DNA from: Fragilariopsis cylindrus CCMP1102
Taxonomy: Eukaryota; Bacillariophyta; Bacillariophyceae; Bacillariales; Bacillariaceae
NCBI GenBank assembly: GCA_900095095.1
Contig: FMBT01000396.1
Span: forward strand, 62,001 to 126,000
Direction of reading: 5' to 3'
DNA: 64,000 nucleotides
The notes beneath the pieces were generated by a model, which was given only the letters and a program-made list of their open reading frames with translations, was not told the DNA's origin and did no database searches. Shown piece by piece: positions 1-64,000 of this stretch. Position numbers and translations under genes: made by a program. Numbering within the stretch: the first letter of the stretch is position 1; each line of letters starts with the position of its first letter.

Positions 1-191
1 GTTCGTTCCACATCCGTAGCGGTGTAAAGTTTGAGATGAGGGGCAACAGGCGATACGTTCCAAGAACAAGTTGACCTAGTACCAGTAGTATCATCAGGAC
101 GAGCTGGCTTAAGGTACAGCACGATATTGGTGAGTGGTTCGTATTGTCTTCTTTTGCCATGGTAGCAGTCTATTTTCGAGCGTTTGGAATG
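1..191 (-). CDS. Edge exon of an unrecognised conserved-looking protein (partial)
   Basis: One minus-strand frame is open from a possible 3' splice site (CTAG just above 191) to the left edge, about 63 residues. It reads as ordinary protein, including NIVLYLKPARPDDTTGTRS and further on APHLKLYTATDVER, while the other frames carry stops. I do not recognise the family. The exon start is inferred from the AG and from the lack of an in-frame ATG; an alternative frame starts with ATG at 160 and gives a hydrophobic peptide, which I find less convincing. The gene would run off the window to the left. Confidence 0.45.
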
Positions 192-1038
192 CTAGTCTTT
201 ATTATCATCATTATTATAATATCAAGCTTGTCTTTGTAACGAACCCGAAGAGCATACGATTTGTATTCCAGTGGTGTCGAAAAAAAAAAAGCAATAAATG
301 AGACATTAACAGGTTTTAACACGTATTTTGATTATGAACTCTTTTCAAATCAAAAATCGGAAAACCTGGTTACTCCGAAGTAGATGCGTGAGACTTTGGT
401 ACACGCATTAGGGTACAGTACATTAATTTCCAAGCGTGCATGTACACCTTAGTTGCGGACTGATCAGCTATGATTAAGCTAATTCAGCTATGACCGTTAT
501 ATTTAAAAAACGTTAAGTCGCCGGCTGTCCGTGATTCAGTCTTGATACGTTTCCTTCCAGAAACATATCACATAACAAATTCGAAAATAATACCTTAATC
601 GACTAAGTCGACTACAATCAAATTGTAAAGAATATCATGTTTCAAATCGTCATGGATCCAACAAAACGAACAACGTGCACCTACCATGGGATAGCAAACG
701 TTGCTACTTTCTTCTTAACCAATACTGCAGCACTACTGTACAAAGTACAAGTAAAACAAAATCGAGAAATACACAGCTAATAGTAGCACTACTACTTGTG
801 GCGATACGATTTTTCTATTTACGAATTTCCTGGCGTGAATTAATTTTTCAGCACCATCCAGAAAAGACGCATCAAACATCGTCGCTCAAATCGTTTTTTA
901 AAGGACCTCCTGCCCCTGTTTATCCTTGGTGTCTATTCGTTCTATTAGAAACGTCTTTACTACACGTCTATAAATTTCGATAAGAATCTATATTTGTCTG
1001 CTTGCTGTAACAACGATAACGATAACGACCATCTACGT
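192..1038. other. Intergenic stretch, no supported gene
   Basis: AT-rich DNA upstream of the PLP-enzyme gene. A 102-codon frame at 675-983 opens with GTG, has no recognisable domain and reads like random sequence, so I do not call it. It may hold the promoters of the two flanking divergent genes. Confidence 0.5.
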
Positions 1039-1493
1039 ATGTTGTCCGTCAACGCCAACGGCGGTACAGATAATAATAACAACAAAAAGGAGAACCAAGA
1101 AAACAAAAACAGATACGGAAGAAAAAGGAGACACAATACATACAGTCATAATTTTTCGAAACATTACGTAGGCTTAGTAACTATAGTAGTTGCTACCTTT
1201 CTTCTACAAAATGCAACGACGACGACGACGACGACGACGATGGTGTTATCTTTTTCGATCGTCACAATCAGGACCATGACACGACGACGCCATCATCATC
1301 ACGCAGCGATGAAGACAATAATACCATCGCTATTGCAGAGGTACTCAAAATTGGATGATTTTTTGTCGGACACAGATGGGGACGTGAGTCGATTAGTGGA
1401 ACAACTTGAACAGAAACAGAAACAGAAGAAACTTGTCGTCGTTTCTAATAATAATGTTACTAACACCACCGACGACGATACTATAACAATGAC

Positions 1494-1536
<43 letters not shown>

Positions 1537-3120
1537 AATAATAACAACAATATAATAGTTGGATAGATGGGATAAAATTTTCGGAAGAGAAATATGGTAA
1601 CGACGATGACTCACAAAATCAACAACAACAACAGACATCCTCACCATCACCATCACCAGTGGAACTACTGACCATTCGTGATCGAACTATACATATAAAA
1701 TCTGACCAGCAGCTACGATTATTCGGAAGTGGTATTGTGGTAACAAAGCAAGGAAGATGTGGTCTTGAACAAGGTATCAGTGTCCGAATTTCCAAAGTGT
1801 TTAGTTAGTTATGGTGGACCTCAAAGTAATTCTATGTTGGCATTGGCTGCGATCACGAATTACAAAAATAGAGAATTAGCAGAAGAAGAGAAAGAAGGAA
1901 CAACAAGGATGAATAATAACGGCAGCAGAAACAACAATGACAACGACAACGACAACGACATGACAATGACAACATATCTATAAGTACACCAATACGGTTC
2001 GTATACTACACGAAGAAACTTCCTCGATTTTTAAAAAACCAGCCCAATGGGAATTTATTTCGTGCTCTTTCGTTGGAATGGAATTGAAAGAATTATCCCG
2101 TGAGGAGTACTCGAACCTCTTCGAACATCGTTCCGAAGACAATGACGGTGGTGGTGGTCGAGAAGGAAAAAGACCTCCCATGGGATTATTGCTCCAGCTC
2201 CTAATCGTTGTATGTACCACAAGGGGGGGCGTTTTCTTATGCCCTAGTTGGAGTCAACCGACTTTCCGAGGAGATTTACACGGTAAGATGGACCTTCTTC
2301 TTCTCTAGACTAACTATTGATACCATCTCGTATGTGTGTGTGTGTGTGTGTGTGTGTTTTCTTATCCAATTCTTCGATCCGGAAACTTGATTGTCGCTAA
2401 CATATTGTTCCTTGTTGCCAATTATTCCATAGTATTGGCTAGAACATGGCAATGATCGTCCGCTTACGATATTCGTACCTGGTGGAACATGTACAACCGC
2501 ATTGTGTTTGCATCATGGACTGAAACGTCTGTCGCTTCTAGCAGATAGAGAAGACGATGACAATGGTGACTATTCCTCTTCCGCAAAGTCGATGATGGAC
2601 ATCGAAGTTGTGGTCGTTCCTTGCGTCGGCGACGCTGCCTACGCGAGAAAACAAATGATGTCCCTCTCAACTCAAATAGGAGCTAAAGCAGACGATATAC
2701 CCGCTATTTTACAGCCAGAACCGGAAGAACGAGAAAATCTGACCAGCAGTTCACGGCGAAAGTACTTTACCTTTGGAAAACCGAACAAAGAGATTTTGGA
2801 AACCTTCCAAGAACTTCAAAAGGAAAATAATTTATTGGTCGACCTATTGTATGGAGCTCCCTCATTTTCACTTATGTTCCGACACTGGGATGAAGACATG
2901 AAAAAAAATAAAAAAACCATCACTGAGTCCTGACTTGTCGTTCGATCCAAATCAACCGCTATCATCTGGAAGAGAAATTATGTACGTACATAGCGGTGGA
3001 TTAGAAGGTATCACTAGTCAGTTGTTAAGGTATCAACATATCGGGCTAATGAAAATAAAAGACGTCCAGCTACCGGGAAGAAGGAATAAAAAGAAAGGCA
3101 CCGAACAAACGAATACGTAG
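1039..3120 (+). CDS. PLP-dependent ACC deaminase / D-cysteine desulfhydrase-like enzyme, frame-broken
   Basis: Fold-type II PLP enzyme of the ACC deaminase/D-cysteine desulfhydrase family, expected to deaminate ACC or release sulfide from D-cysteine; the substrate cannot be told here. Visible motifs in order: a CGNKARKM block near 1735-1760, where the Lys after Asn is the PLP lysine in this family; LVSYGGPQSNSMLA (about 1798-1845); KLPRFLKNQPNGNLFRAL (2012-2070); VPQGGAFSYALVGVNRL; FVPGGTCTTALCLHHGLKRL; and YVHSGGLEG near the C-terminus. A GT-AG intron lies at 2283-2432. The N-terminus has a hydrophobic segment (VGLVTIVVATFLLQ) and Asn/Thr runs, perhaps a targeting anchor. The frame changes at least six times. 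Near 1738, 1765 and 2070 adding one T, T and G restores the expected family sequence; the break near 2901-2908 instead looks like one extra A in an A8 run. The ATG at 1039 is the first in the opening frame. Family sure, exact boundaries less so. Confidence 0.72.
2283..2432 (+). other. Intron of the PLP-enzyme gene
   Basis: Donor ACG|GTAAGA and acceptor CCATAG|TATTGG join EEIYT to YWLEHGND in one frame. The intron contains a (GT)n microsatellite at about 2333-2358. Confidence 0.75.
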
Positions 3121-3343: not shown

Positions 3344-5765
3344 TCACCAAGAATATTCTTCATCCGAGCCTTCCTCTGAGTGATCAAAGTCACTGACAGA
3401 GTCCCATTCATCGTCATCTCTATACACCTCATCATCTCTACTATGCCGACGAGAATCTGGAGGTGGTGAGCCCCAATCCGATTCTCGTTCGGCATCAGCT
3501 CTTGCTCTTGCGGCCGCCATCCGTGTTGCCTTCAACGCTCGTTCGCGAGCTTCTCGTAAAATTTCTAAAGCATCTAAGTAACTGTCTGCCATGTCTGACA
3601 ATTGATCGTTGTAGCCCGATCCGCCATTTAGTGCATCAATGATATCTTCTTCCAATACATTGTTCATTGTCAAATCCATTGTCAATTTTATTCTGGATAT
3701 TTTTGTCTAGATTCTTGTATGACAGCCGCTAGTGCCTCTGCAGCTCTTGTCTCAAACGAGCAGTGTCTCAAACCCAGTACGAAATGGTCGAGGGTATTAT
3801 CATTATTTTCCGAATCCATGCCTGATTCTTCTGCACGGTCTTCGTCATCATCGATAAAGGCTTCGGCAAAGGAAAGGGCGCCACATTTTATCTTGGAATC
3901 ATCATCGTCATCGTCCCCCATTCGATCCTCCTCCTCGTCATCACTTTCTAAGGTATCTAGTCCTTCGCCGTTGATGTTTTCAGATAATCCTCGGATTTTC
4001 TTGCCAATGATGTTCATGTACGCCGACGTGGTGGCTGTAGCTTTACTTCGTAATGCTTTGGCGGAATATTTATTTCCCGACGACTTCTTTTGGTTAAAAT
4101 TCCAAGCGGATTGCCACTTAAATCGATCGAACGCCTTCTGCTTGTCGTTCTTTCTGCTGCTGCTGCTGCTGCTGATGGTGACGGTGACGAGGATGACGAT
4201 ACACTGTTCGCTTGCGAAGCCAAGATCCGTAGGGCATTACCGAGATAGGCTGCACCGTCTGCTTTTATGTTGCAGCTTCTAAGGATTAAATTTGAGATAC
4301 CATCCTCCTGAAATGCACGAGCCAGTTCTTTAGCTCCACGGTCGCTCAAATCATTGTTGTTACTCAAATCAAGTGTTTCAACGAAACCGGGGTCAGATCG
4401 AGGACGACTATGACGATCGTCTGTATTGTCTATTACACCACCCAGTGATCGTGCGATGCGCTGTGCCCCTTCATCAGAAATTTGATTGTTGCTCAAGTCT
4501 AAATATTTCACACATAGTGGATGGTTCTCCAATGCTATCGCCAAGGCTTCAGCCCCAACGTCTCCTATTTTACATCCCGATAGGTCTAATCGTTCAAAAA
4601 TTACTATATTAGTTCTTGTCAAAGAATCATAGGCTTCGCTAGGATCATCATTGTCTTGTTCAGTAGTTGTTGAGCTACTGGCGGAATCGTTTTCAGCATC
4701 ATTGTCTTTGTTCTCGTCGTCGAGTTTCTTGATCGATTCCTTCTTTTTCTTTTGTCTGTCGTTTTCCTTCCGTTGTTGCTGAGACGCAACAGTACGAATT
4801 GCAGCAGCTAATGCGGCAACACCTGCGTCGCCAATGCCTTCGTTGCGAGCTAAATCCAATGACAATGGTAGAGGACAGTATAAAGGAACATTTTCTTCTT
4901 CTTCTTCTTCTTCGTCGACATCACTTCCTTGCTTTATATCGTATCGTTCCACAATACCCTTGGCAATATCTCTACACGATGATGGGCCCAACCCACAGAC
5001 ACTTAATCGGATCGAAGGAGGACATTGTCGACTATCTGAGAGAAGTCGTCGTAATGCCTTGTTCATTGTTTTAACTCCAGACGATGCTGCTCTACTACCA
5101 CTAACACGACCAAGGTTGTTCCAACCCAAGTCAAGACTCTGTATCGAAACAAATGCGAGGGGTGACTTATCTTTATTCCCCATATGAATTTTTCCATCAG
5201 TCTTCGTCGTTTCTTCTTCCTCTTCCTTGTTTTTGTCGATGGTGATATTGTTGTCATCATCGGTCTCTGTTATAACTACTACTGCGCCGGCGTTATCGCT
5301 GTCGTCGTCGTCGTCTTTTTCTTCGACGCTAGACACATTTGTTATTATTTCGTTCGGACCATTTTCTAGAATGAAATTAAGAATTTTAATCGCATCCTCT
5401 GAAGACCATTGATTACGTCGAGCTGTAAGTCGAACAGAAGTCGTCGTCGTTGTTGTTGTCTGTGACGGAGGATTCTGCAGTGGTGAGCCTTCGTATTTAT
5501 TATCAAACGGTTTCAGTGATTCTAGTATCCCTGAAATATTTTTACCAATTAAAGATGCTGTTAGGTCAATGTCCACGATGGGATCTTGCTGCTGTTGATG
5601 TGTCAAAGTTTCTCGTATAGCAACGGCAAGATCATCAGACGGGCAACTATGCAAATATGAAAGATCGAGCGAAAGTTGTGTTGTACTCGATGACGTCGAA
5701 CTGCAAAGTAATAACAACAGTAATAATAATATGAACCACCGTGACAGCATCGTTATTGCAATCAT
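3344..5765 (-). CDS. Leucine-rich-repeat protein with signal peptide and acidic tail
   Basis: The first 583 residues (4014-5765) begin with a clear signal peptide or anchor, WFILLLLLLLLCSSTSSS. They carry ribonuclease-inhibitor-type LRRs such as LDLSGCKIGDVGAEALAIAL, LDLSNNQISDEGAQRIARSL and LDLSNNNDLSDRGAKELARAF, interrupted by Asp/Glu/Lys-rich inserts (about residues 330-370). LRRs of this kind bind proteins; no enzyme domain is seen. Two further minus-strand frames follow directly (3688-4017 and 3344-3685), acidic and charged, the last ending EEGSDEEYSW. Because they abut without intron signals and other genes here are frame-broken, I join them as the acidic C-terminal tail, with breaks expected near 4030-4090 and 3675. 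They could instead be a separate small gene. ATG at 5765 opens the signal peptide. Confidence 0.66.
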
Positions 5766-6178
5766 CGAATTAGAATCCCAACTCCTGTAAACTCCTCTTC
5801 AGACAAAACTAACTTGCTGTAAAGGACGATGTTCAATGCATCAACAAGTAGTATGTGACAATAAAAGTCGAAAAAGTCGTTGTCGGTTGTCGTATCTTGT
5901 ATTATTTATTACGTACTATACCGCGTGGAAGATGCGTGCGTGACTGAGTGAGTCCGTCTAAAAGAAAATAAAAATACAAAAAACACAGTAAAAAATAAAT
6001 CAACTATGACAATGACGCAGTATCCTCAACGCCCAACCTCAACAATACTGACTACCCGTTGCATATCTTTGTGCAAGATGATATATGAGACTTGGACAAA
6101 TTAATTAATCATAATATAGTACTACAGTATTGAATAATATAAGAGCAAAGAATATAGCAACATCAATTTCATTAAAAA
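5766..6178. other. Intergenic stretch between two minus-strand genes
   Basis: About 410 bp of AT-rich sequence holding the promoter side of the LRR gene and the 3' flank of the TFIIE beta gene. No coding pattern or RNA gene seen. Confidence 0.6.
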
Positions 6179-7910
6179 TTACATCCCTCCATCTCCTACT
6201 GCCTGTCCTTGTTGCTGCTTCTCAGTTGCTCGGCGTAATACTGCCCCGATCTCTGTACCTTCTAAATGCGTGTTAGTCATTCGTTGATTCTTACGTTCGT
6301 AGTACCGTCGTTTCTTTGGTTTGCCGTCATTGTCCACATTGGCTCGCTTTTTCAGTCTCGCCCGTCTCATTTCTTCATCAGGTTCTAATAGTTTGTGCTC
6401 TATTAATGCTGCCTTTAAATCTGCTCCAGCTTCTGGAACCTTACCTCTTGTCTTTAGGTACATTTCTCGTACGTCTTTTGTACATCCATGTCGTCTCGCA
6501 TGCGAATACAACGATAAGTATGGATCTAATGCCGCCTCCTTGAGCTTTACCATTGTTTCTTGTGCTGCTGCTCTCATACTTGCATTCGATGCCGTGCTAC
6601 TACCCCCACCCCGTGGACCTTAGGCCGACGACGTGATCCTGTGGCATGACTAGTTCCAATGATGCAGCCAATGCAACGGGATTAGAAGAGTGGGCGTTAA
6701 CACCTAGCAGCTGTGATGCAGCACCTCCCGCTCTTCCACCATGCGCCAATTTGAGCAAACGTTCACGGGCTTCCTTAGCATTTTTCAGATTTTCGATCGC
6801 TGAAGGGGGAAGAGCTGCATCGGCGGGTACGATCCTTTCGGAGAATGGTCGTATGTAGCCATCAATTTCGTTCCGCTTGGATAGATCTTTCCGAGAGACA
6901 ACCGAAAGTGGTGCTGTTGCTCGAGCTGGTTGATCTTTGAGAGGTCCCTCCTTGACAGCACTAGAAACGCGGAACCACGATCCACCGATCTGAATGGCTT
7001 CTCCTCTTCGGACTTGACTCCTTGGATCTGAGTCGGTTTCTACACAATACACTGGACGACGTGGTGGTGGCATTTTGCTTCTGAACTACCGGTCGTGGAT
7101 TCGTCCATCTTTTTCTCTTCTAGTAAAGCGATTTGATAGCATGATCTATACTGGCATCGGATTCTTTTTTGATGTCTTCTTCCTTGATATCACTTTTCTT
7201 TTCCTGCGACGTCATCAAAGATCCCATTTCTGTATTATTCATTGTAGTATAGTTGATTTCTTCTTCTTTTTCGGTGGTGGGTTTATTATTCCATCCAATT
7301 CTACAAAAAAAGGTTCTCCTCTCGGAAACAATACCTTGTCTTTGTCTTCGGTATTAAACAAGGCCAGCACGTCTCCAGCTGTTATTAGGGCATCCAAATC
7401 GTCCATCACATTGTCGTAACTATCGATCATATCTCGCATAGGAACACCATTCTTGCATCGATTGATTTGTGCTAACAACGTCTTCCTATCCCGAACGTTG
7501 TTATATTTCGCCTGATATGCGTACGTGTCAATCGTCAGTGATGGATTTTCAGGGTCCGGAATAACTTCAACTTTTATTTTTGGATTCCGTTTCAGCATCT
7601 GTGCAACATTTACATTTTCTTCTAAATCAATCCCCGTTCGTTGGTAAATAACTGATGGTGGCATCCATCCAGCGGATCTATGAGCCTGTAAGAAATGTAT
7701 GACATCGAATTGCTTTTCAAGGTCGGGTTTGTTTGCGACAGAGGCAGCAAGGGCTTCCGTATCTATATCATCGACACGATCACCATCATCATCGTCAGAG
7801 GAATCGTTTTTCGCACTCCCAGTTCGACGAGGATTTTGGTTCGAACCAACTTCATCAAGTACATGTTCTCGTCGCAAGAAATCGAGTCCGTAACGGTTCA
7901 CCTGGGCCAT
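6179..7910 (-). CDS. Transcription initiation factor IIE beta subunit, frame-broken
   Basis: TFIIE beta is the winged-helix subunit of TFIIE, which recruits and regulates TFIIH in the RNA polymerase II pre-initiation complex. The N-terminal block (7239-7910) starts MAQVNRYG and contains a TFIIE-beta core winged helix: EKQFDVIHFLQ, then KYNNVRDRKTLLAQINRC, GVPMRDMIDSYDNVMDDLDA and DKVLFPRGEPFFVELDG. The middle block (6600-7073) holds QIGGSWFRVSSAV, and the last (6179-6577) is basic, with KPKKRRYYERKN and MTNTHLEG, resembling the basic C-terminus of the family (human ends in a similar NEHLAG stretch). The three blocks lie in different frames; a readable linker (MTSQEKKSDIKEEDIKKES) sits between the first two, so single-base breaks are more likely than separate genes. 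Alternative GTG/TTG starts upstream were not used. Confidence 0.82.
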
Positions 7911-12644: not shown

Positions 12645-13489
12645 ATGACGTTTTTTGTTCAAGCTTTCGTTCATCCTTCTTGCGATACGTTAACAACTAC
12701 CACATCGAATCAACGACAACGACAACGACAACTTCAAATAAAAAAACGAAGACTTGACAGTACTACTGCTACTGCTACTACTACTACTACTACTACTACT
12801 ACTGCATTTATGTCCACTTCACTGTTTGAACAACCTTCTGCTGACTATTCATTCCTCGATGGTACCTCTATTGATCATCCGCTTCTTCTCGCTGCAACTA
12901 GTACAATAACAACAACAGCAACAAATTTTGGTGAATCTGCTGTAACATCCTTTGAACCGATTTTGAATGTACCAGCATTAGTTACTTTTCTTTTTATTAC
13001 AACTATCTTTACAGCACTAATATTACGAACGAATCAAGTAGAAGATGCTGTTCGATTACGGAAACAACGATTAGAAGAATTAAGAATATTAAAAACAAAA
13101 GAAATTTCTAATGATGTTGGTAGTAGTATAGTAAGTTCAGAAGATGTACAGAAATCATTACATTTATATGAAGATGCTGTCCAACGAGAAGAGTCGTTGC
13201 GGCAAATTGTACCCGGTGTACGAATTGTTCCACCAAGTTCTAATGATCGAAAGGAGGAAGAGGCCAGTTTGATAGCAAAGCAATTATTAGGTAAAGATAT
13301 AATATCGGTCGAGAAAAGCGAGTAGATGAATACGATGACGAAGAACAACAACGAAAGAATAATGGAAAGTTACCCAACGTAGCTATTGGAATACTGTTAA
13401 TGGTAGGGCTTAGTCAAGTGGGTCTATTAGCCTTTTTGAATTTTGGATTTGCTGCTGATGCCAATAATTCGTTGTTTAATAAGTTGTAG
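12645..13489 (+). CDS. Small two-helix membrane protein, possibly plastid
   Basis: The first 226 residues contain a low-complexity Thr/Arg/Gln N-terminus, a hydrophobic helix (VPALVTFLFITTIFTALIL) followed by a charged helix (VEDAVRLRKQRLEELRILK), and a charged middle. The frame breaks near 13310-13325; the next frame continues as RVDEYDDEEQQRKNNGKLPN and a second hydrophobic helix (VAIGILLMVGLSQVGLLAFL), ending NSLFNKL at 13489. A one-base deletion explains it. No enzyme motif is visible. VQAF near the N-terminus resembles a diatom plastid cleavage motif, but no good signal peptide precedes it. I do not recognise a named family; two-helix plastid membrane protein is an inference. Confidence 0.68.
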
Positions 13490-13768: not shown

Positions 13769-14579
13769 TCATCCCCGTCCTACGAAGGGCTGGGTAGTTG
13801 GAATAACAGTTAATTCCAAAACATTGACGTTATAAGGAAAGCTTGCCATCGTCAAAACACACTTCGCTACATCATCTGCAGTGAGAAATCCTTCAGTCCT
13901 TCCTCTAACTTCTACTTCTTCCGGTGATAATAGATCTGAAATGACATTACCAGGATGAATAATACCTACTGCAATACCATGTTCACGACAATCCAAAGAC
14001 AAACTTTTTGTAAGTCCTTCAATTGCAAATTTAGATGTCGTATAGGCGGTAGAGTTTGGTCGAGGACTTGTTGAAGAAATACTACCAATATTAATAATAC
14101 GACCACGGCCTTTTTCTCTTTCGACTATTTCGTCCTCGTCGTCTTTTTGCTTCATACGTTTGATAGCTTCCCGAGAACAAAGGAATGCACCAACTACATT
14201 AACTCCTAACACATCCTCCATATCTTTCGCTGTCAATTCTTCAATTGAATTGGCAGTCACATTGATACCAGCATTATTAACTACTATATCTACACCACAC
14301 TACCAAACACTCGTCCATTTGATCGATTTCTTGAAAGAGTTTGATAACGCTGTCTTCCTTGGATATATCACTCTGAATCACATGACAAAAAGTATTGTTC
14401 CCCGTCGTCGTCGTTTTCGTTTTCAATGTCCTTTTCGTTTCTTCGAGTTTGGACAGTGTACGACCTGTCAAAATTACGGATATATTATTTGATAGGAATA
14501 CATGAGCTATAGCCTTACCAAATGTACCAGATCCGCCGGTTATAAGTGCAATCTTATTTCGTGCGAGAGGAGGCATCAT
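13769..14579 (-). CDS. Short-chain dehydrogenase/reductase, frame-broken
   Basis: NAD(P)-dependent Rossmann oxidoreductase of the classical SDR type, closest in style to 3-oxoacyl-ACP reductases. Seen: cofactor motif TGGSGTFG (residues 14-21), NNAG within VDIVVNNAG (about 14270-14295), catalytic Ser in GSISS and YxxxK as YTTSK, then HPGNV. The N-terminal half (14277-14579) and C-terminal half (13769-14260) are in different frames; reading across the break near 14295 gives the expected GVDIVVNNAG, consistent with one missing base. Length about 270 residues fits the family. Substrate unknown. Divergent from the PDZ coiled-coil gene. Confidence 0.85.
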
Positions 14580-15153: not shown

Positions 15154-18100
15154 CAACTACACCAATCATCGTCAAATGCGAGGAAATTTGGAACACCTTT
15201 ACGTAGCAATGTAGACAAATCTCAACGATCTGTACAATATAGCCTCAAAAAGAAGAAAGTGGTTAGAGTACGAACGCCAAATAATAATTCTAAAGCAACT
15301 GGACAGAAATTGATTCAGCAACAGAATCATTGCCGTTGTTATCGTCATCTAATACTACAACTACTGCTGGGAAGGAAAACACTGTTGTTTTCGTTCCTGG
15401 ACCTGTTGGTTTGCAATTGGAGCCCGTTAATGAGTCTCCTCGGTACGGTTGTCGTGTTGCTAGATTCGTTGATGGGGGTCCGAATGATCCTGGACAAGGT
15501 AGAAAGTCTGGTAAAATTTCCTGTGGTGATTTGGTATTGAAAGTCGAAGCTGAGGGAGAATTAATGGCAGCGACAACATACGATGAGATTATTAAATTAC
15601 TACAATTGTCTCATAAAAAAAGGATCATTACAGTCCAATCTATCTGGGGATCTAATAAAAATGTATCGGAACCAACAACTAATAAAAGCGATCGCGGCAC
15701 CAAAATTGGACAGTTCATTCCAACTAAAAGAGGTAATTCTACCACGACCAAGACTCGTGACAAGGATAAGCTACCACCACCGCCACCACCAATTCTTTCT
15801 CAATCTCAGGGAACTCCAAACTCTACGATCGAAGATGACATGATCTTCCTGCCTCCGTTTCAGTCTGTAGTCCATTCGTCTTCAGAAGAAGAGTTTAGTG
15901 AAGCGAGTCCTATTAGGAATAGAACAATATTACCACCACCAGCAGCAGTGGCAACAGACGCACCCATTATTGTTAACATGTCATCGCAAGACAGCACTCC
16001 ACTCTCGCGAAGCTCCTCTTTTCGAAGTCAAAGTACAACCAAGTCATCGAAGAAATCTATGACACCACCATCGCAGAATATTGCCGATCAATTTCTACTA
16101 TTTGACGGTTTTATGGGTGGACTTGAACAAGAGTCTTCACAATATTCTAGCAATTCAGCGTCATCGAGCTTCGAAAGTATGAGCATTGCGGAAGATATCG
16201 ACGCAACCAAGTCTAGAGATAACTGTTTCATCAACGTCGAGACACCAGATCGTCAGTCACAAAATTCTGCGTGCGATGATCACTGCGAGAATACCGTCAG
16301 GTCCCAAATTCAACAACAGCAAGATTTATTTGAGCTTAGTCTCGCACGTGCTGATTTCGAACAGCGTCTCCAGGCGGCGAGGACTGAACACTCCAAGACG
16401 GAACGAGAATTGAAAGATCTGTATATCCACTCGTGCGAAAGGAATGAAGATAAAATTCGTGAGCTTGTGGTCGACAATGATTCACTCCAAAAGCTCTCGA
16501 CGAAACTAAGGCTAAGCAAACGTTACTGACCGATACGAGAATCAAAGGAATGGAAAAGCAGGTAGCCGAGCTAGAGAAGATTCGTGTTCAAACACAAATT
16601 GAAGCAGGGGCGAAAATTAAGGATGTGACAAACGAATTCTCTCGTAAAATGGTAGCAAAAGAGGGGCACTGGAATAGGAAGTTCGCCGAACTAGACGATG
16701 AGATCAACGATTTACGGGGAAATCTGCGTCTACAATAATGGAGCTAGATATGTCGCGAACCATGATAGCAGAGATGGAATCTCGGATCCTCGCAGCAGAA
16801 GGAGAGAAAGACGACTTTTCGGGTCGTCTTCAAGATGCGCACAGATCTATCGAAGATTTAGAGGAGTCCATCCACCGACATAAAGAAGAGGATAAAGTCA
16901 AGGAGCAAGTACTTCAAAAATCTCAAGAAAGACAAGAAAAGGTCATGAATGAAAATCGATCATTGGCAGAAGAAATTGAAAGCTATGACTCATTCAGGGA
17001 AGAATCCTCTGTGCTCACAGAAAAACTAGCGAACTCGGTGCAAGAGAAGCACAAGGTAGTTATCGAGAGTCAATCCGTCGCATCCAAACTTGAGACGGAA
17101 AATGAGAATCTGGCGAAGCAGATTGACGAGAAAACCAGTGATGTTGACCAGCTTCTGCAAGAGAAGCTATTGCTGGAAGACAAGTTGGCGCAGACTTGGA
17201 ATCAGTATAGAAAGCAAAGAACGCTGCATCCACTGTTCAGGATACTTTGATGGAGAAGCTAGAGAATGGCGAATATTTCACATCGGCTGATGTTGAAGAG
17301 AAAGAAGTTACCATTCAATCGTTGTCAAATGAGATGAAGCGCGTCAAGGCAGCTTTGAAAGATGAATTATTTAAAGCAACCAAGAAATCCGTGAACTTGC
17401 ACCTGCAATTACGAGGGGTAGAACTGAAACTTCGTGAAAGAGAAGAGTCGAATATCAAGATAACCGGGGAAAGAGAAGAGTCGAACAAAAAAATCCTAGA
17501 GCTTGGGGAAAATCTAGATACAGTCAAGAATCAGATTCAAATGGTGACCGAAATGTACGACGACGAAAAGGTCGTTGTAATTGAGCTCAAAGGACAAGTA
17601 GAAGCTTTGTCATCATCAAAAGAAGAAGCAGAGATCTCTCATCAAAAGTCAGTTGAATTACTATCATCAGAGCTCGAGGCAAAGAAGGATGAGCTTATGT
17701 CTTGCCAGGATAGGCTAAAGGAGATACAGCCTTTGATGCAGAAAGAAATGGCAATTAGTGCAGATCTCGGGTCTCAAGTTGAATCAATCACAAAATCAAA
17801 GGAAGACGTAGGGGTGCAGTATCAGAAATCAATTGAATCAATATCATCAGAGCTTGAAGCAAAGAAGAGTGAGCTTCTACTGTGTCAAGATAGTTTGGAA
17901 GAGATGCAGTCTTTGAAAGACAAAGAAATGGCAATTAGTGCAGACCTCAAGGCTCAAGTTGAATCAATCACAAAATCAAAGGAAGACGTAGTGGTGCAGT
18001 ATCAGCAATCAATTGAATCATATCATCAGAGCTTAAAGCAAAGAAGAGTGAGCTTCTACTGTGTCAAGATAGTTTGGAAGAGATGCAGTCTTTGAAGGAC

Positions 18101-21100
18101 AAAGAAATTACAGATAGTGCAGACCTCAAGGCTCAAGTGGAATCATTGACAAAAGCAAAAGTGGAGGCAGATGTACAAAATCAGAAATCAAATGAAACAA
18201 TATCATCAGAGCTCGAGTCAACGAAGAATGAAATGTTCTGCTGTCAAAACAGATTAAACGAAGCGAAGAATGTTAACATTTCTTTGAGGAAGAGTAACGA
18301 CGAGCTTGGACAAGATCTTGCTACTCTCACTTGCACGACGGAAGAAGCAGATTCTCACACCAAGAAAATGCTTATAGAAGTCCAGAAGGAAGTTCAGTCG
18401 CAAAAGATGAAGGTGAACTCAGCAGAAGCTCAAAGGGGTGAAATCTTAGACGAGCTGCACCAGCTCAAGTCCAGGGAAGAATATCTGCAACAACAAATTG
18501 TTCATTTGGAAACCACGCTTGATCAATCCGAGCAGGAGCTGTTTTTGGCGAAAGCAGAGGCAAAAGAATATTCCGACGAATGCGCTAGTCTGTGTGAAGA
18601 GCTTTCGTGTACGGAAACGAGACTACAGATTCTTGAAGAAGATTACAATGTTGTGAAGTTGGTACAAGAGAAATCACGGGAAGAAATCGACAGTTTGGTT
18701 CTTGAAAAGAAGAACATAGATAGTAACCATCAAGAAACAATTAAGGAATTGAATTCTGTGCTACAGTCCAAGCAAGCGCTCCTCGAAACAACGAAAGAAG
18801 CTCTTCAGCAGTCAATTGACAAGTTGACTTTAGAAAGCAACGAAGCGGGGCTTCAGTACCGAAATGATATCAAAGAACTAACAACTGAACTTGAACGTAA
18901 AGAAGGCGAGCTCTCTACCACAGAAGCGCAGCTAATAAATAGTCAAGACGATGGTTTAATTGCCATGGAAGCCATGGAAGGATTACGCAAGACAATACAT
19001 TTATTAACGTCAGAAAACGAAACTGTTTCAACACAATACTGGGAAAGTGTCGGCGAATTGACTGCCGAATTACAATCTAAGACGGAAGAGCTCTCATGCA
19101 AGCAATCGAGATTGGATGATCTGCAGGTGGAAATTCAGTTCAACAAAATGAATCTACAAGAAAAGGAACAGCATCAGTTCCATGACCTTAGGGAAACGAT
19201 AGCTTCTCAAACCAGATTGCTTGATTTTAGTGAATTTGAGAATTCAAAGATGGAGGATCTAAACTCTACTCTACAGTCAACAATAATTGACTTAGAGAAT
19301 CGCCTATCTGAGTCTTATTCTACACTTAACGGAAAGTTTACCTCTTTATCACAAGAAAAAGCGGAAATTGAAGAAGTTGCAAATCTGCAACAGGAAAAAA
19401 ATAAAGATGAAATAAAAGATCTTCAGTCAAAAATATTGTCAATGAGCCATGCAAATTGTGGTCAGCAAATCAAACTACGTGCATTGACGCAAGATACTGG
19501 TGAAAGACTAAAGCTGCAAAAAAATTGTGATGATTTAAGTGAATATGTTGCAAATCTTGAAGTATCGAAGGAAAAGATGTCAATTAACTATTGCTCAGAG
19601 ATTTTTCGACTCGTCAAACGGCTGGCTATACTTGAGTCGACACACGCCGAGATAAACGAGCAGCGAAGAAAGGCAATGGTGTTTGCATCTACGCAACTGA
19701 ATGTTTCCTCGGCACGAGCAACTCAGCTTCATAACAAATTGAAACATAATCTCGGACAGCAAGAAGAAGAAGAAAGACTAATTGCTGTCGAATTAGCCGA
19801 AAAAACCAAGCAATTAAAGTTCCAGAATGTCATGACATCATCCCTGCAAGTAGAAACATCTTCTATATTGCTCCTGGTGAAAGATCTTGAGGAATCCAAA
19901 GAAAAAGAATTCAATGCCTTAAAAGCGATCACCGAGGGTTTGCAGTCAGAGCTATCCTCTGAAAAAATGAGAAATGCTCAGTCTTCGGCAGATGCATTTG
20001 ATGCAAGAATCGAGTTGAAGATATTGGACAACAAGTACAGTTTAATGTTACAAAGCAAGGATGAAGCTTTGCTTAAATCAGAGAATGCCCGAACAACCAT
20101 GGCACGTAATATGCTTCAAGCAAATGCTATTTTGACCAGTCTTCGTGAACAGCTGAAGGAAAAGGATCACGAGATCGAGGATGTAATGCACGACCTCCAA
20201 CAAACTAAGGAAGAAATGGGTAACAAACATGATGGCATGATCGAATCAAAAAGGCTTGCACTGGAACTTGCGGCTGTTCAACAATCAGAAATTGAGTTGA
20301 GGAAGGAAATCGTGACTCAAGCAACGGAAATCGATGTTCTTTTGGATTTCAATTCTATACTAAAAACTGATCTGGAAGCCAAAGAAAGGAATCTGGACGA
20401 ACTTATCGAGGAACTGAAAGATAAAGAAGGATCATCGTGTCATCTGAGGGAAGATATACAGCAGGTTGGACGCGAATTTCAGCGGGACGTTACAGGGCTA
20501 CAACGTCAGGTGTTATCATCGAGAGCTACTTATATCGCTAAACACATACAAAATGGTTGTCTTGAACAAAATCTTGAAAGGCTAAACCATCAATTACATT
20601 CGTTGCAAGAGGACGAACAGTCATTAAAGAAAAATATCTTGAAGCTGCAGGTACATTATGTTTCAAAACATCTTCAGACTCAAATTTTGGAGAGAAATAA
20701 TGCCTGTTTTAATCAAAAAGAAAATGTTTCTGAAAAGAAGATTAACGACCTCAAGGAGGCGAACGCAATTCTCGAAGGTGAAATGGAGACGATGAGTGTG
20801 ACTCTCAACGAAAGCAAAAATCAAATCGAACAGCTCCAAACCATGGGAGCATTAGAAATCGATATTCTCAACGAGGAAGGAAAGAATAAGGACCCCGAAT
20901 CTCGAAAGAGGACTGAGTCGAAAGAGAAAACTCAATTATTGAGGAATATTGAATGTCTGTCGAGCAAGTAAGTACTGGTACATTTACACAAGATAGTTGT
21001 AACGAATAATTGATCATGCTTTATCCTCCTGTTTGGTTTTCTTCCATCGTAACTTACACATCTCTATTTCTTTCTTTCTTTGCCTCTACCAATTTTTAAC

Positions 21101-22907: not shown

Positions 22908-23003
22908 TTTATAGAAAAAATTAAACTTGCTTCTTTGTGCTAAATGTAGAATCTTGTCTTTATAAATTGTACCATTTTATTTTTATTGTAACATATCCTC
23001 TAT

Positions 23004-45548: not shown

Positions 45549-47331
45549 ATGATGAAAATTATTTCCGTTCAAACAATGAACCTGTTGGTCGTCGTAGTGT
45601 TTCTATATCCCGGAATAGTATCGGCATTTATTCTAAGGCAATCGCCAGCTAAGTCCGCAATTTCGTACCACACTCTATTTCTAGCGAAAGTAAAAACGAA
45701 AAATCAGAAGAAGAAGAAAACCAAATCGAAGAGTTCAGCGGGATCATCGATTTCGGGTGGGGGATTTGCAAAAAAGGTTGAAGCTACAAAATCAACGGGT
45801 CCCGATGATGATTATGTGATGTTTCCAAAACTTGAGCCTAATGTATGTGAAACAATTTTACAGACTCCACCTAGTGTGATGGAAGAAATAAAAAGATCCG
45901 GATCTGTTCCATTGGAAGTTTATGATCGCCTAGAGCAGATATACGGATTTCCGAACTTCAATCATGAAGTTTCGTCAGTTGAAAAAATGATAGAAGAGGA
46001 ACAAAACAACGATGAGGAGGAGGACGGGAGCTTTTCATTTGAAGATCTATTGGCTGCACCATCACCATCCGTTCCTAATACCAACACAAAAGACACCGCA
46101 ACAACATCATCAGACTTTAGCGACCTGATAGCTGCCGCAACGGGTGATGGTGGTCAAGTTGAAACGCAAAAGCAGGATAGTAGTAGTAATGACAACAAAG
46201 AAAATAATGCGGTTGCCAAATCGGAAATGAGGAATGCAATTTCGAGTTTGCCACAATTTGAAAAAGTCCAAGTCTTGCATTTGGACCCATTGATTTTACA
46301 AGTTGACGATTTTCTTAGCGAAGAGGTTAGTAATATCCTAGTATATTATGAGTTCTATTTCACGATATAATACCGTATCTCCAATTCTCATATTTTTTCT
46401 TTTTTTTGATGATAAAAATCAATCACATAATACAATATAATGATCAGGAATGTGATCGATATGTAGATATGTCACTGGCACCAGTTGATAATGATGGGAA
46501 CCAAAAAACAGTCGATAGCTTTCAAACGCGATCCAAGACTGTAGGAAAAGACGCCAGTGCTAAGGCGCAACGAACAAGCACCACGTGGTTCCATCACTAT
46601 AGGAACGTTCCTGAACTCATGGCCAAAGCTAGTCGTCTTGTTGGTTTGGATTCTATCGATCGGTGGGAAGAACCCCAAACTGTTAGGTATCAACGAAGCG
46701 AAAAGTTTACGTGGCACTTGACGCATTGGCTCCGGTACAATCAACCGATGATCTTGGTGGTCAACGATTAGCCACGTTAATCGTCTATCTGAAGGATCTA
46801 GAATCGGGCGGTGCAACAGTATTCCGAGATCTTGGGCCGCTTAAAGTGTAAGTAGTGTGATGGGAAATATTATACGGTAACAAAGGCAGAAAATTTCATA
46901 TCGTTATAAATTATTTTTGTGACTAAATTCATTATCGTGAATTCGATTCAAATCATCTTATCCTTATCCATCCATATAAACAGTCAACCCAAGAAAGGGT
47001 CCGCATTGTTATTTTTTCCTGCTGCAGGAGGTATCCCTAATGCACCTTTCGACATAAGGACTTTGCACTGTGGAGAAATCGTCCCGGACTCATCCGTGAC
47101 TGACAAATGGATTTCTCAATTATGGTAAGTAAATACGTTGCTACTAGGTGCTATATTGCTTTACTATTAGTTGCATTTGTTCGAAACTAATATGTGCTTG
47201 TTGTTTGGTTTGGTCCTTTTCTGTTTGGCTTTAGGCTACGGGCTGGGCCCTATTCGCCCACGGCTCCACCAGGAAATCTACACGAGGATGCTTTGAACGA
47301 TGTAAAGAAATATTGCAATTCATCGTCATAA
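45549..47331 (+). CDS. Prolyl-4-hydroxylase-like 2OG-Fe(II) oxygenase, four exons
   Basis: 2-oxoglutarate and iron-dependent oxygenase. Exon 1 (45549-46325) has a signal peptide (LLVVVVFLYPGI) ending VSAF-ILR, a diatom plastid-type motif, then a basic, disordered region. The P4H fold begins LHLDPLILQVDDFLSEEE. Exon 2 (46448-46847) encodes RTSTTWFHHY, QTVRYQRSEKFTWHL and LIVYLKDLESGGATVF; exon 3 (46984-47124) GSALLFFPAAGG, RTLHCGEIV and VTDKWISQLW; exon 4 (47235-47331) LRAGPYSPTAPPGNLHEDAL. Iron ligands are seen as H-x-D (WHLDAL once a missing T near 46720 is restored) and the distal His of TLHCGE; Lys of TDKW binds 2OG. Introns 46326-46447, 46848-46983 and 47125-47234. Target protein unknown. 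Confidence 0.87.
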
Positions 47332-47790: not shown

Positions 47791-49060
47791 ATGCTAGCAA
47801 CATTCCTACGATATATGGATGGAGCAATAAAATTAAAGTGAGAACTTCCTCACAGCTTGGTGCTCTTTCCCTTAACCGAAGGGATTACTAGCAGGAGCAG
47901 GTGCAGCCGCTGTATTAAGTACTTGTGGTGTTTCTAATTCAAATGCTCTCGAATTGGTTTTCAACGAAAAACAACAATACGTCCAGAAATTTCCGACCCT
48001 ATTTGCTCCTCTATACGGAGAAGCATTTAAGAAAACTATTAAACGATCATTAGAACCAAATAATAATGCCAATACTACAATTTGGGCTATAGAACAAAAT
48101 CTGGAGCTTGGTCCTCTACAAACACCAATACGATGTGTAGTTGTTCGACTAAAAAATGGAAGTTTATGGGTCCATGCCCCATTGGCACCTACGCAAGAGT
48201 TTTTTGAATTGGTCGAATCATGTGGAGAGAAAGTGGCACACATTGTGGTACCGACCTATGCGCTCGAACACAAAGTATTCGTTAAGGATGCACTGCGACG
48301 TTGGCCTGACGCTAAACTTTGGACTTCTCCAGGTCAATTTTCCTTTCCGTTTGATGTTTCCGAAGAATTCGTTTTTGGTAAAAGAGTAGATGGTGTTTTG
48401 GATGCAAAATCTCATCCGCTAATACCATGGAGCGACGAAATTGATTATGCAACTCTGGCAGGGGGGACTTTTGATATTGGTGGCAAGTCCACTACTCTGT
48501 TTGAGACGGCCTTTCTCCATAAAGCTAGCAAATCATTGATTGTCACTGACGCAGTTGCTCAGATTCCAAAAACTGTTCCACCACTAAATAATCCTGAAAA
48601 CCTCCTCTTGATATCGAAGCTATCCACAGCTGATCCCATGCCAGACGATACACCATCATCAAGACTTATTGGTTGGGAGAAGACTGCTCTATTAGTTTCG
48701 TATTTCTTCCCAGAACACGAAGAATTTGATCCAAAGAAACTAGGAGTCGTCACTTGGACGGAAGGGTGGCATGATAATTTTAATGCCCTAGCGGGACGGC
48801 TGATAGTTCCTCCTGTTGTTCGGACCCTTATTTACGCTCAGAATCGATCACGGGTTGGAGAATGGGTAGACGAAGTAGTAGAACGATGGGAGTTTGATCA
48901 GATAGTACCCGCTCATTTCGAGGCACCTATAAAAGCAACATCGAGAGACTTTGCCAATGCATTTTTGTTCCTAAAAGATGATACTGTGGACGCATTTCCA
49001 GAAAATGATCTAGCACGAGGGTTGAGACCAATTGCCGATGCTGCCTTGAAAGTACTTTGA
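47791..49060 (+). CDS. DUF4336 protein with twin-arginine-like leader, frame-broken
   Basis: The 368-residue main frame reads PTLFAPLYGEAFKKTIKRSL, then WAIEQNLELGPLQTPIRCVV, SLWVHAPLAPTQEFF, HIVVPTYALEHKVF, FPDVS-type core and HDNFNALAGRLIVPPVVR. This is the metallo-hydrolase-like DUF4336 family found in cyanobacteria and plastid-bearing eukaryotes. The frame just upstream reads NRRD, and adding one T at about 47888 gives RRDLLAGAGAAAVLS, a twin-arginine leader as used for thylakoid lumen import. Without the addition the frame stops. In-frame ATGs at 47791 and 47815 are possible starts; no classical signal peptide precedes them. Function unknown. Confidence 0.7.
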
Positions 49061-49758: not shown

Positions 49759-49803
<45 letters not shown>

Positions 49804-52300: not shown

Positions 52301-53812
52301 ATGAACGTACCAACAACTCCTATCACAATAACCGAACGAGCTGCTACCCAGATCTCACTAGATCAAACCATCAAGTTGGAGCTTATATCTCCATTTTCTA
52401 CCGGTCTCATCCCGATTCGGCGTCGTGTACTACGGTCTAGTTCTTTCAAGAATACTAATACTTGTGGCAGCAACAACAAGATATCCAATGACCGACGAAG
52501 AAAGAGGAAGAGTGCTGGTGCTACTACTACCGGTAGTGCTGTGTCGACAAACGCTCAGTGCATCGTTTCGGATGACGATGAGTCGATCTTGAACAAAAAG
52601 AAAAGGAAGAAGGATGTCACTATCAACTACAACACTAGCACCAACACTAGCAATCCAGCTCCTACTGCTTTCTCTACGAAGAATGTCGGTGGCAATGCTA
52701 CTATATCTTCAGTATCATCCTCATCATCATCATCACCATCGTCTTTGAACTCACAAGCACAGATTCATTCCAAGAAATATCCTTTTCCCCATAAGTTATA
52801 CGATCTTATGGCGAAAACTGATAGTAGAGATGTTATTTCTTGGTCGGCCGATGGAACGGAATTCGTCGTACATGACCATGCCCGGTTCGCATCTATACTT
52901 TTACCAATCTACTTTGGTCATAATCAGATGAGAAGTTTTGATCGTCAATTGAATTATTGGGAGTTTGAAAGAACCAATACAAATAAAATTTCAAATAAAT
53001 CCTTTGGTGGAAAGTCATGGAAACATCCATTCTTTCAAAAGGATCGACGTGATCTACTCAAAGAGATTGTACGTAAGAAGATCAAAAACGGACCAGCATC
53101 CACTCGACGTTATACATTCAACGACGGTGACGACAAGAAGAAGAACAAGAAGAAGAACAAGGACAAGAACACCGCGGCGACAAAGATTAAAAAAGAACAA
53201 CGAGGTATGGAAGAAGTTCTCGAGTCAGTAATACCCGGTCCTACCCATGCCAACGTTCGGAAGAATATGCTCCTCAAGATTCAGTCTATAAATCGGAAAG
53301 GGGAGAATCTCGCATCAATGGGGTTACGAAGAAATATCATCAGTCCTGTGGTGAATCAAGAATCATCCTCGTTATCATTATCGTCGTCGTCATCATCGAA
53401 GGAGTCATTACCACCGTTACCAGAATTAGAAATCGAAATCGCACCGCCAATACAGTTACGAAGAAACATCAATCTTGTGGTGTTTCAAGAATCATCATTG
53501 TTATCAACGTCGTCATCTTCGTCATTGTCATCGGAGGAGGAAGAGTCATTACAACCGTTATCAGAATACGTTCGCACTCCTTCCGAGATGATTGCTACTG
53601 CATTGTATGAAGACATCGAAGATGAATTTTTACCCCTTCTACACATCGATTGTTTTAATGACGTCGACGTCGATGGCGATGGCGACCACAAGGGGGACAA
53701 GAACGAGGACAAGCATAATATGCACAATAGCAGTAACAATACTGATGGCGGTATGGTATACCAATGGGATCATAATGGCATAGTATTCGGAGGAAAATCT
53801 TCCACGATATAA
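52301..53812 (+). CDS. HSF-type DNA-binding transcription factor
   Basis: 503 residues from the ATG at 52301 (an earlier TTG was not used). The HSF domain spans about residues 158-262: KKYPFPHKLYDLM, ISWSADGTEFVVHDHARFAS, LPIYFGHNQMRSFDRQLNYW with the recognition helix, and GKSWKHPFFQKDRRDLL. Diatoms have many such factors, mostly of unknown target. A basic, Lys-rich segment follows (about residues 290-310), probably a nuclear signal, and the rest is Ser/Glu-rich and disordered with two similar segments, SMGLRRNIISPVVNQESSSL and QLRRNINLVVFQESSLL, suggesting a short internal duplication. No coiled-coil oligomerisation domain is seen. Confidence 0.88.
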   Translation: MNVPTTPITITERAATQISLDQTIKLELISPFSTGLIPIRRRVLRSSSFKNTNTCGSNNKISNDRRRKRKSAGATTTGSAVSTNAQCIVSDDDESILNKKKRKKDVTINYNTSTNTSNPAPTAFSTKNVGGNATISSVSSSSSSSPSSLNSQAQIHSKKYPFPHKLYDLMAKTDSRDVISWSADGTEFVVHDHARFASILLPIYFGHNQMRSFDRQLNYWEFERTNTNKISNKSFGGKSWKHPFFQKDRRDLLKEIVRKKIKNGPASTRRYTFNDGDDKKKNKKKNKDKNTAATKIKKEQRGMEEVLESVIPGPTHANVRKNMLLKIQSINRKGENLASMGLRRNIISPVVNQESSSLSLSSSSSSKESLPPLPELEIEIAPPIQLRRNINLVVFQESSLLSTSSSSSLSSEEEESLQPLSEYVRTPSEMIATALYEDIEDEFLPLLHIDCFNDVDVDGDGDHKGDKNEDKHNMHNSSNNTDGGMVYQWDHNGIVFGGKSSTI

Positions 53813-53912
53813 AATCGGGGGTAACGATGACAATAACAGGAATGAAAACAATGATGACGACGGCGATGACGACCGACGGCGATGACGATGACGATGACGA
53901 TGAGATGAAGCA

Positions 53913-54245
53913 ATGTCGACGTTGATGTCTATAATCCTCAAAGACGAAGAAAAATCTCCACTCCTCACCTACAAGGACGACATCAACGAAGTATACGATT
54001 ATTCTGTCCCTTGCTTGTTCGAAGCCGCCATCAACGATAGTGACGATGATATAGGTGACTCAGAAAGTGAGCGTGAGAAGAAAAGAGACGTCCTAAAGAA
54101 ATTGACCGTCCCGAAGTTGAAGGATAGACTCCTTGAAGCTGGTGCTAAACATTCACAGTTCAGAAGTTTACGGAAATCGGATCTGATTGAATTGCTTATC
54201 CAGATGGATCAAGATCTAACGACGACAACGACGTTAGTGCACTGA
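53913..54245 (+). CDS. SAP-like segment, perhaps the C-terminus of the HSF gene
   Basis: 110 codons; an SAP-type helix-turn-helix (LKKLTVPKLKDRLLEAGAKH, then LRKSDLIELLIQM) near the C-terminus binds DNA or chromatin in other proteins. It follows the HSF frame by 100 bp of Asp/Arg-repeat sequence and lies in another frame. It could be the end of the same protein reached through a frame break in the (GAC)n/(GATGAC)n run, or a small separate gene. ATG at 53913 is used provisionally. Confidence 0.5.
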   Translation: MSTLMSIILKDEEKSPLLTYKDDINEVYDYSVPCLFEAAINDSDDDIGDSESEREKKRDVLKKLTVPKLKDRLLEAGAKHSQFRSLRKSDLIELLIQMDQDLTTTTTLVH

Positions 54246-58345: not shown

Positions 58346-58350
58346 GTACT

Positions 58351-62291: not shown

Positions 62292-62311
62292 TCAATTCTA
62301 CGTAGAATTGA
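62292..62311. other. Perfect 20-bp palindrome
   Basis: TCAATTCTACGTAGAATTGA equals its reverse complement; no spacer. Confidence 0.9.
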
Positions 62312-63399
62312 TTCTTTTTAGATTTCATTAAATAACAAAGCGCAGTAATTTCTAATAAGGATTTAATTTTTGAAGCAAAATTGAAAATAGCTATCCCGAA
62401 GGCGCGTGCAAAAAAAAATCGAAGCACATGACAATGTTCTCTAAGAGGCGCAGGGAATTACATATTGCAATTTGGTGAGAGCACAGTAATTGAAAACATA
62501 GTACGTTAAAAGGCAGACTCTATTCTGATGGATAGTTTATCTGTTATACACCATCAAATATACTATAGTTTAGTGGTATTATCTAGTTAAAGAACCAAAA
62601 AGAAAAGGGGGCAAGGGATAGATTTGAATTTCTGACCAAACATGGCTCGCGAGAAAAAACATTTCTAGACTTTTGCCATGATTTTATGCCCGCGCGGATG
62701 ACTATCAGACACCATGTCACGCCCCTCTTTCTATGACCCCTGTGCAACAATATTAGAATCAGAAGAAGAAATCAGCATTGTTCAAATTCATTATATATCA
62801 TGACAATGGAGAATGCATTAATCAATATACAAGAGTGGATTCAAAAGAAGGCGCTTTCTACCTCTAGGCTTACCATTAAGGAAATCACACCACATTCCTT
62901 ACCTTCCTGAGCATTTAAAACAGTTCAAGTGCACTCCTGACAGTGCCCCTCTCCATTTATCATCAACAGCAGTAAATTATAATAAAAATAATCAACTTTA
63001 GATTGATTGAGTGGTAGATCCAAATATGTGTAATTTTGTGGATATTACAAAGTACTAACCATATCAAAAATCTGTATCACACACACTTGACTAATAAGCA
63101 ACTATCATCTTTCAGTGATGGTGTAAGGTATTTGAATGAATCTATCACAATACTGACAATATGAAATTACTGTATTCAATCGAATCTGTGGCTAATACTG
63201 CCCCCTTTCTATTCAGTCGCAAGCATAACTCGACCCCCAAATCTTGATCGAAGAGGGAGGACGGACGAGCAAATTCGAAAAATAAGAGCGACAAGAAAAG
63301 AAATACTAAGTTCACGCTTCACGCTAAAAACGAATGCACATTTCCAACCTTGAACATCGAACGAGTTGGATGGATTTTGAGGGCTCCAGCTGCAAGGCA

Positions 63400-63570
63400 C
63401 TAGTGTACCACCAAATGCATGGCTTTTTTATCCAACTAATTGCTTACAACTTAGATATTTTTTTGTCTTAGACATATAAATCACATAGACTACTGTACTC
63501 TATACATCTTAGTACTAGTGTACCACCAACTGCGTGGATTTTTTGTCCAACTACCTAATAATTGCTTACG
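63400..63570. repeat. Two imperfect direct repeats of about 50 bp
   Basis: Both copies start CTAGTGTACCACCAA, continue with TGGxTTTTTTxTCCAACTA and end AATTGCTTAC; starts are 115 bp apart, just upstream of the ATG at 63581. Confidence 0.85.
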
Positions 63571-63580
63571 ATAGTAATTA

Positions 63581-64000
63581 ATGCCGAGAACAAAGGTAAA
63601 GCGAGAAGACTGGATTGCCAGGAACCGTTTCGTGGAACGCTTCTTTGGTAATGGGGACGACAACAACAACAACAACAACAACAACAAAACCTCCACATCC
63701 GAACCGTTGGTGCGCAAGGAAGATGTGATACAAGCTATACGGTACCAGCTTGTGACGTGGAGCGAGCTACAACTCCACCAGTGGAAGAACGACCGTGATG
63801 TGGTAATGGCGTGCATCAAAACGAAAACGAATCAAATTCTGTGGACCGATATCCCGTTCGAGTTGCAGCAACATCTTGATATTTTGTTGTTGGCGATCCA
63901 ATGGCGGTGTCTGACGTGGGGCCATATTAATACTACATTAAATACTACTACTACTACTTGTATGGAAGGATCCAATAATAATAATAATAATAAGTGGAAG
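63581..64000 (+). CDS. DUF4116-like protein, 5' part (runs off window)
   Basis: Open frame from ATG at 63581 to the right edge, about 140 residues. It starts MPRTKVKREDWIARNRFVER and contains an Asn run, then VIQAIRYQLVTWSELQLHQW and KNDRDVVMACIKTKTNQILW, a pattern like DUF4116 repeats (NDREVVLAAV type), and LDILLLAIQWRCLTWGHI. DUF4116 proteins are repeat proteins common in stramenopiles, function unknown. Only the beginning is visible, so the family call is tentative. Confidence 0.6.
   Translation, partial: MPRTKVKREDWIARNRFVERFFGNGDDNNNNNNNNKTSTSEPLVRKEDVIQAIRYQLVTWSELQLHQWKNDRDVVMACIKTKTNQILWTDIPFELQQHLDILLLAIQWRCLTWGHINTTLNTTTTTCMEGSNNNNNNKWK

Follow-up and report, generated by a model that had tools for sequence, protein, structure and literature searches.

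Insertions and deletions (indels) that break open reading frames have been described in long-read assemblies (PMC12007338 and others). In a long-read assembly of Trypanosoma brucei, 98% of the error-suggesting variants were indels or complex variants, and collapsed alleles caused further indel errors (PMC8445201). The assembly of the diatom Fragilariopsis cylindrus was polished by Quiver from PacBio data, and in a comparison with 13 Sanger fosmids, from 0 to 135 indels were counted in each (PMC5634323). Summed over the fosmid list there, these come to 622 indels and 1,185 single-nucleotide polymorphisms (SNPs) in 421 kb, with more indels than SNPs in seven of the 13 fosmids; the same paper reports haplotypes that are highly diverged over ~25% of the genome. 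Here I analysed a window of 64,000 nucleotides, bases 62001-126000 of contig C75 (148,738 bases; C-numbers are the contig labels used throughout this analysis), in an assembly that is most likely this PacBio FALCON/Quiver one, as inferred here for platform and species alike. Single-base breaks of the reading frame were found in many recognisable genes of the window. These are almost certainly residual consensus errors of a noisy-long-read diatom assembly, mostly single missing bases, and not biology.

Stop-to-stop frames of at least 60 amino acids were listed across the window, and 17 genes (10,280 codons) were analysed with a frame model that uses window-trained codon usage, GT-AG introns and an identical penalty for a missing base (DEL) and an extra base (INS), and that forbids in-frame stops. 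The model merges the adjacent TFIIE and leucine-rich-repeat genes, and some of the long introns that it calls are doubtful. At a frameshift probability of 1e-4 per codon and with introns of 45-400 bases, it called 18 missing and five extra bases, and nine of the 17 genes were affected (two-sided binomial p 0.011). With introns of 35-500 bases, the ratio of missing to extra bases was 16:5 (binomial p 0.027). It was 9:3 at 1e-5 per codon (two-sided p 0.15), 22:8 at 1e-3 (p 0.016) and 29:8 at 3e-3 (p 0.0008). When single-base changes were implanted, 271 of 300 deletions and 268 of 300 insertions were recovered with the proper sign at 1e-4, as were 284 and 281 of 300, respectively, at 1e-3. Implanted deletions and insertions were thus recovered about equally, and the model does not favour missing bases. 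Fourteen unmodified test genes gave three extra-base calls and no missing-base call at 1e-4, and four and one, respectively, at 1e-3.

A hand tally, made with the claim already known and hence not blind, gave ~32 missing bases against five extra ones. The model also called 24 of the 32 at one setting or another, and the other eight come from reading (near 1742, 1764, 1985, 2075, 23030, 31117, 37630 and 37614); the tallied 7137 and 7075 could be an intron instead. The tally excludes several model calls of the loosest setting (missing at 1216, 4082, 15194, 15304 and 34438; extra at 1344, 53786 and 53874), and the extra-base calls at 1749 and 1981 are replaced in it by four missing bases. Real or possible extra bases lie near 2200 and at 2905 (poly-A; it could be two missing bases), both from reading, and at 6620, 14297 and 28771. 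Thus, the sign pattern is strongly but not wholly one-sided, with a minority of extra bases. An earlier reading of the sequence alone had claimed recurrent one-base breaks in many recognisable genes, and these are confirmed: in many of the genes the frame changes where an intron would not fit. The same sequence-only reading took the changes to be one-sided, which holds for the predominance of missing bases and not in full, as extra bases are plausible at the five places.

Two genes have a break that can be located by means other than the frame model:

15303..22907, plus strand: gene of a long coiled-coil protein of 2,473 codons (model; the pieces tested had no Pfam match)
30557..31262, plus strand: MAGOH gene (PF02792) with two GT-AG introns; one base is lacking at the T run 31117-31120

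The coiled-coil gene has five missing-base breaks (16491, 16724, 17209, 18021 and 22633) and one intron (20968-21137). A 180-base tandem repeat with copies 97% identical lies inside it at 17781-18110 and offers an internal ruler for errors. The repeat copy at 18015-18025 is one base short, while three other copies, one of them 97% identical to the short one, keep the base (A, A and C). The break at ~18021 is fixed at the DNA level by these repeats of the same gene, independently of the frame model. The break in MAGOH was found by reading, without a model call. The joined read, with one unknown residue at the break, matched the human Mago nashi homolog 2hyi_A with an E value of 4.2e-51. The alignment extends from residue 10 to the last residue, and its sole gap lies near the N-terminus, with none at the break. 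This collinearity with the family fixes the MAGOH break independently of the model as well.

If the breaks are consensus errors, duplicated contigs offer a further test. In evolving alleles, substitutions should accumulate at a higher rate than one-base deletions, which is not required of a noisy consensus. A search for a second copy of window positions 1-9000 in the assembly returned repeats only, and a search with 40000-46000 returned none. The comparison was made on other contigs and covered 62,386 aligned columns of local alignments, in 15 stretches drawn from 13 contig pairs (two of the stretches, L023/L024 and L031/L032, overlap). Global alignment was set aside for the counts, as it inflated substitutions in noisy patches. 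In total, 298 substitutions, 108 one-base gaps and 61 longer gaps were found. In three diverged, allele-like pairs, substitutions number 86, 67 and 78, while there are 7, 5 and 6 one-base gaps, respectively (231 against 18). In two 3-kb stretches of C376/C792, 0 and 1 substitutions stand against 9 and 17 one-base gaps, with three longer gaps. These two contigs, each ~15.6 kb, may be a single locus that was assembled twice rather than two alleles. Intermediate between these two patterns are C61/C149 with 30 substitutions and 30 one-base gaps, C32/C551 with 22 and 23, and C180/C572 with 6 and 8. Of the nine pairs other than C376/C792 and the three diverged ones, seven are identical or have at most eight one-base gaps, and two have about equal numbers of gaps and substitutions. 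Seven of the 108 one-base gaps could be scored for coding, and in all seven the longer copy was the open copy. It was also considered whether polishing with RNA sequencing reads accounts for the clean exons in some pairs. This idea was dropped, because one-base gaps occur in exons too (12 in 32 kb of a global alignment) and PMC5634323 names Quiver with PacBio data.

The breaks had also been said to fall often in short homopolymers. In the duplicates, 19 of the 108 one-base gaps lie in runs of at least four, which make up ~8% of bases, a mild enrichment. At the window breaks, 17 of 30 intervals hold such a run against 14.0 expected, which is not significant; at least four of these 30 computed intervals exclude the break as read by hand. 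The homopolymer claim is thus weakly supported.

The other genes with breaks in the window are as follows:

1545..3117, plus strand: gene of an ACC deaminase / D-cysteine desulfhydrase-like pyridoxal phosphate (PLP) enzyme, read in three frames; the joined read matches 9jqf_A (E 5.5e-10)
3344..5798, minus strand: leucine-rich-repeat protein gene (PF13516, E 3.4e-24), with missing bases near 4100-4154 and, less clearly, 3690
6182..7910, minus strand: TFIIE beta gene (PF18121 above and PF02186 below the cut-off)
12645..13489, plus strand: protein gene without a Pfam match (model), with one missing-base break near 13299
13769..14579, minus strand: short-chain dehydrogenase gene, with PF00106 positions 1-73 and 78-188 in two frames
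23003..23987, minus strand: ferredoxin-like gene (PF00111, E 7.6e-4, just below the cut-off) with one intron
25638..27192, plus strand: histidine acid phosphatase gene, with PF00328 in the end pieces (E 1.8e-5, above the cut-off, and E 0.0074, below it)
27283..30142, minus strand: UFM1 E3 ligase (UFL1) gene (PF09743, E 3.5e-18; PF25041, E 0.0027, below the cut-off)
36620..37873, minus strand: RlmN-like radical SAM gene with introns; the joined read matches RlmN 3rf9_A (E 6.1e-36)
38852..39354, plus strand: Rpb4-family (RPC9-like) RNA polymerase subunit gene (PF03874, E 1.5e-11), with one missing base near 38960
45549..47320, plus strand: prolyl 4-hydroxylase-like gene (frames and model) with GT-AG introns and one missing base near 46685-46742

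In the PLP gene, about five missing-base breaks (near 1552, 1742, 1764, 1985 and 2075) and two breaks with an extra base or a double missing base (near 2200 and in the A8/A7 tracts at 2901-2916) were read. One GT-AG intron follows ~2285 by reading; the model places it at 2210-2432. The model called a missing base at 1552 and extra bases at 1749 and 1981. Each of the latter two is better explained by two missing bases, as the stretch that these would enclose carries family sequence in the third frame. The GNKARK motif in this third frame was confirmed by the alignment to 9jqf, and the second stretch aligns weakly. The sequence-only reading had proposed an extra A in this gene; extra bases near 2200 and in the poly-A at 2905 are plausible.

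The TFIIE beta gene has a missing base near 7292, an intron or two missing bases near 7151-7040, and one extra G within a G run near 6613-6600; its C-terminal part presumably resembles TFIIE. The dehydrogenase gene is split near 14300 by a net one extra base. In the ferredoxin-like gene at 23003..23987, which the sequence-only reading labelled PDZ-ferredoxin, bases are missing near 23588 and 23030, and the model calls only the former. No gene of the window was recognised as the Siva-like one of that reading. The phosphatase gene has five successive frame changes, all of the missing-base sign (26088, 26198, 26239, 26310 and 26519); the model agrees at p = 0.003 only, and stricter settings give two separate genes. 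UFL1 lacks bases near 28536, 28327 and 27845 and has one extra-base call near 28771. The RlmN-like gene lacks two bases near 37630 and 37614, adjoining the cysteine cluster, both by reading and without a model call. The gene at 45549..47320 is presumably of the prolyl 4-hydroxylase family; three pieces of it were searched against Pfam, with no match.

Some genes of the window are intact or nearly so:

40336..41112, plus strand: ferredoxin-like gene of 258 codons, no break called (PF00111, weak match, E 0.012, below the cut-off)
41346..45167, minus strand: MINDY-like gene of 1,273 codons, no break called (PF13898, weak match, E 0.013, below the cut-off)
47876..49060, plus strand: DUF4336 gene with an intact main open reading frame (PF14234, E 1.8e-92)
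52301..54245, plus strand: heat shock factor (HSF) gene (PF00447, E 1.7e-24), with a frame change or an intron at 53751-53902

The MINDY-like gene and the ferredoxin-like gene at 40336 make 4.6 kb of coding sequence with zero breaks, as had been noticed before. HSF had been listed with them as intact, which is true of its DNA-binding domain and may not be true of 53751-53902. Intact frames of 1,273 and 984 codons stand beside broken ones.

Three other features were observed in the window. An ABC transporter gene (G-type by eye) lies at 31780-34580, with PF01061 and PF19055 pieces, introns and probable frame changes that were not tallied. A tRNA-His (gtg) gene lies at 58351-58422, matched over its full length. 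A repeat of ~80 bases at 482-573 has eight copies on other contigs, with 89-93% identity. Several of these have a second, inverted copy (~78-79%) that starts 227 to 359 bases off (for example C91:469833 minus / 470082 plus and C90:533318 minus / 533554 plus), an arrangement which resembles a short inverted-repeat transposon. A search of window positions 1-1000 for inverted repeats found none.

Are the breaks limited to the window? Outside it, 26,850 codons yielded 14 missing-base and seven extra-base calls from the model; of these 21, four fall no more than 15 bases from the end of a locus and probably reflect edge effects. The density of breaks is 0.75 per kb of coding sequence in the window against 0.26 in the other places combined (p = 6e-4). 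By place, it is 0.08 per kb in C91, 0.35 in the rest of C75 (sampled) and 0.93 in C265 (three calls in 1,070 codons). In searches for HSP70 and TCP1, many of the matches were unbroken and some were split (C693, C70, C347 and C655). Silicon-transporter genes, with 27 matches in the genome (best E 1e-226), are split on C600, C639 and C77, with intact ones alongside. The breaks are not confined to the window; they are patchy and occur in genes irrespective of function. In the same genome, 53 matches of the ice-binding domain PF11999 were found, some within open frames of 700 to 1,980 codons; one 760-codon frame (C674:243466-245442) holds three of them. Together, the silicon transporters and the ice-binding domains mark the genome as that of a diatom, probably a polar one.

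The alternative that survives best is that the mutations are real and inactivating, so that the window would contain decaying genes, either pseudogenes or one degenerate haplotype. The higher density of calls in the window, the diverged haplotypes reported for F. cylindrus (PMC5634323), and in-frame stops within some matches on other contigs are in its favour. However, genes that are expected to be essential (MAGOH, TFIIE beta and the RPC9-like gene) are affected, and conserved genes on other contigs are also broken. The diverged pairs give 12.8 substitutions per one-base gap (231/18), and ~37 shifts should thus bring hundreds of substitutions, of which ~4.9% would be nonsense (for random changes in these genes). 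In the segments read by hand, the stops come after a frame change, and the protein continues in another frame. The frame changes are also mostly of one sign. Decay of the genes is therefore very improbable, as the sequence-only reading had argued from essential genes.

Another possibility considered was that the DNA truly carries the deletions and that the cell compensates for them, through programmed -1 ribosomal frameshifting or slippage of the RNA polymerase. The consistent sign of the shifts would fit, as would the runs of at least four in 17 of the 30 break intervals and a slippery heptamer in five of them (2.6 expected). However, no common motif was found; a heptamer count of five is reached by 11% of random sets, and neither enrichment is significant. 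Duplicate copies of other genes lack the break, the base deleted at 18021 is present in three repeat copies, and the intact frames of 1,273 and 984 codons adjoin broken ones. I regard such correction as scarcely credible. There is an equally negligible chance that, at most of the frame changes, an ordinary spliceosomal intron was misread by eye: the genes do carry GT-AG introns (e.g., MAGOH and the P4H-like and RlmN-like genes) and a raised shift penalty makes the model swap a shift for an intron at some places, but 16 or 18 missing-base shifts are still needed with introns of 35-500 or 45-400 bases allowed, and homology (MAGOH, RlmN) or the repeat (18021) is unbroken across the break, which leaves nothing to splice.

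Several points weigh against consensus errors as the source of the breaks. The sign bias is not significant at the strictest penalty (9:3). The seven scoreable duplicate gaps are few cases, from four contig pairs. The published fosmid indel counts (PMC5634323) include allele differences. The same paper gives 745 + 288 contigs (59.7 + 9.1 Mb), and the assembly analysed here has 818 contigs and 67.9 Mb. Calls are ~3 times as dense in the window as in the other places combined, and the reason that I give for this patchiness is inferred. In-frame stops occur in some matches elsewhere (e.g., on C655, C693, C639, C77 and C307). Nevertheless, consensus error, which had also been proposed from the sequence-only reading, is supported by the open longer copies of the duplicates, located outside the window, and by the indel-rich fosmid validation in PMC5634323.

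Under consensus error, the raw reads would carry scattered indels, and where the read depth per haplotype is low or alleles are collapsed, polishing may omit single bases. Low depth or collapsed alleles could also be the reason for the higher break density of the window. In the living cell, the genes are most likely intact. In such patches, the assembly is not trustworthy at the single-base level as a basis for gene models, counts of pseudogenes, comparisons of alleles or predictions of proteins, and where one allele copy lacks a base, this may pass for divergence of the alleles or for a lost function. The comparison of duplicate contigs, by one-base gaps against substitutions and by which of the two copies keeps an open frame, works without reads and is usable for other diploid-aware assemblies.

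How does this locus compare with the known cases? The studies of the PMC12007338 type concern mostly bacterial or small genomes, with no diatom among those listed. The T. brucei assembly shares the artificial truncation of open reading frames in long-read data (PMC8445201), while it is from another organism and was corrected with Illumina data. The closest likeness is to the assembly of PMC5634323, which is also of a diatom. Duplicate copies were found here, and that paper mentions identical copies on alternate contigs. The largest contig is 1.26 Mb there, and C90 has 1,265,703 bases here; the largest alternate contig there, of 127 kb, has its counterpart in size in C32, with 126,967 bases, which is one of a duplicate pair.

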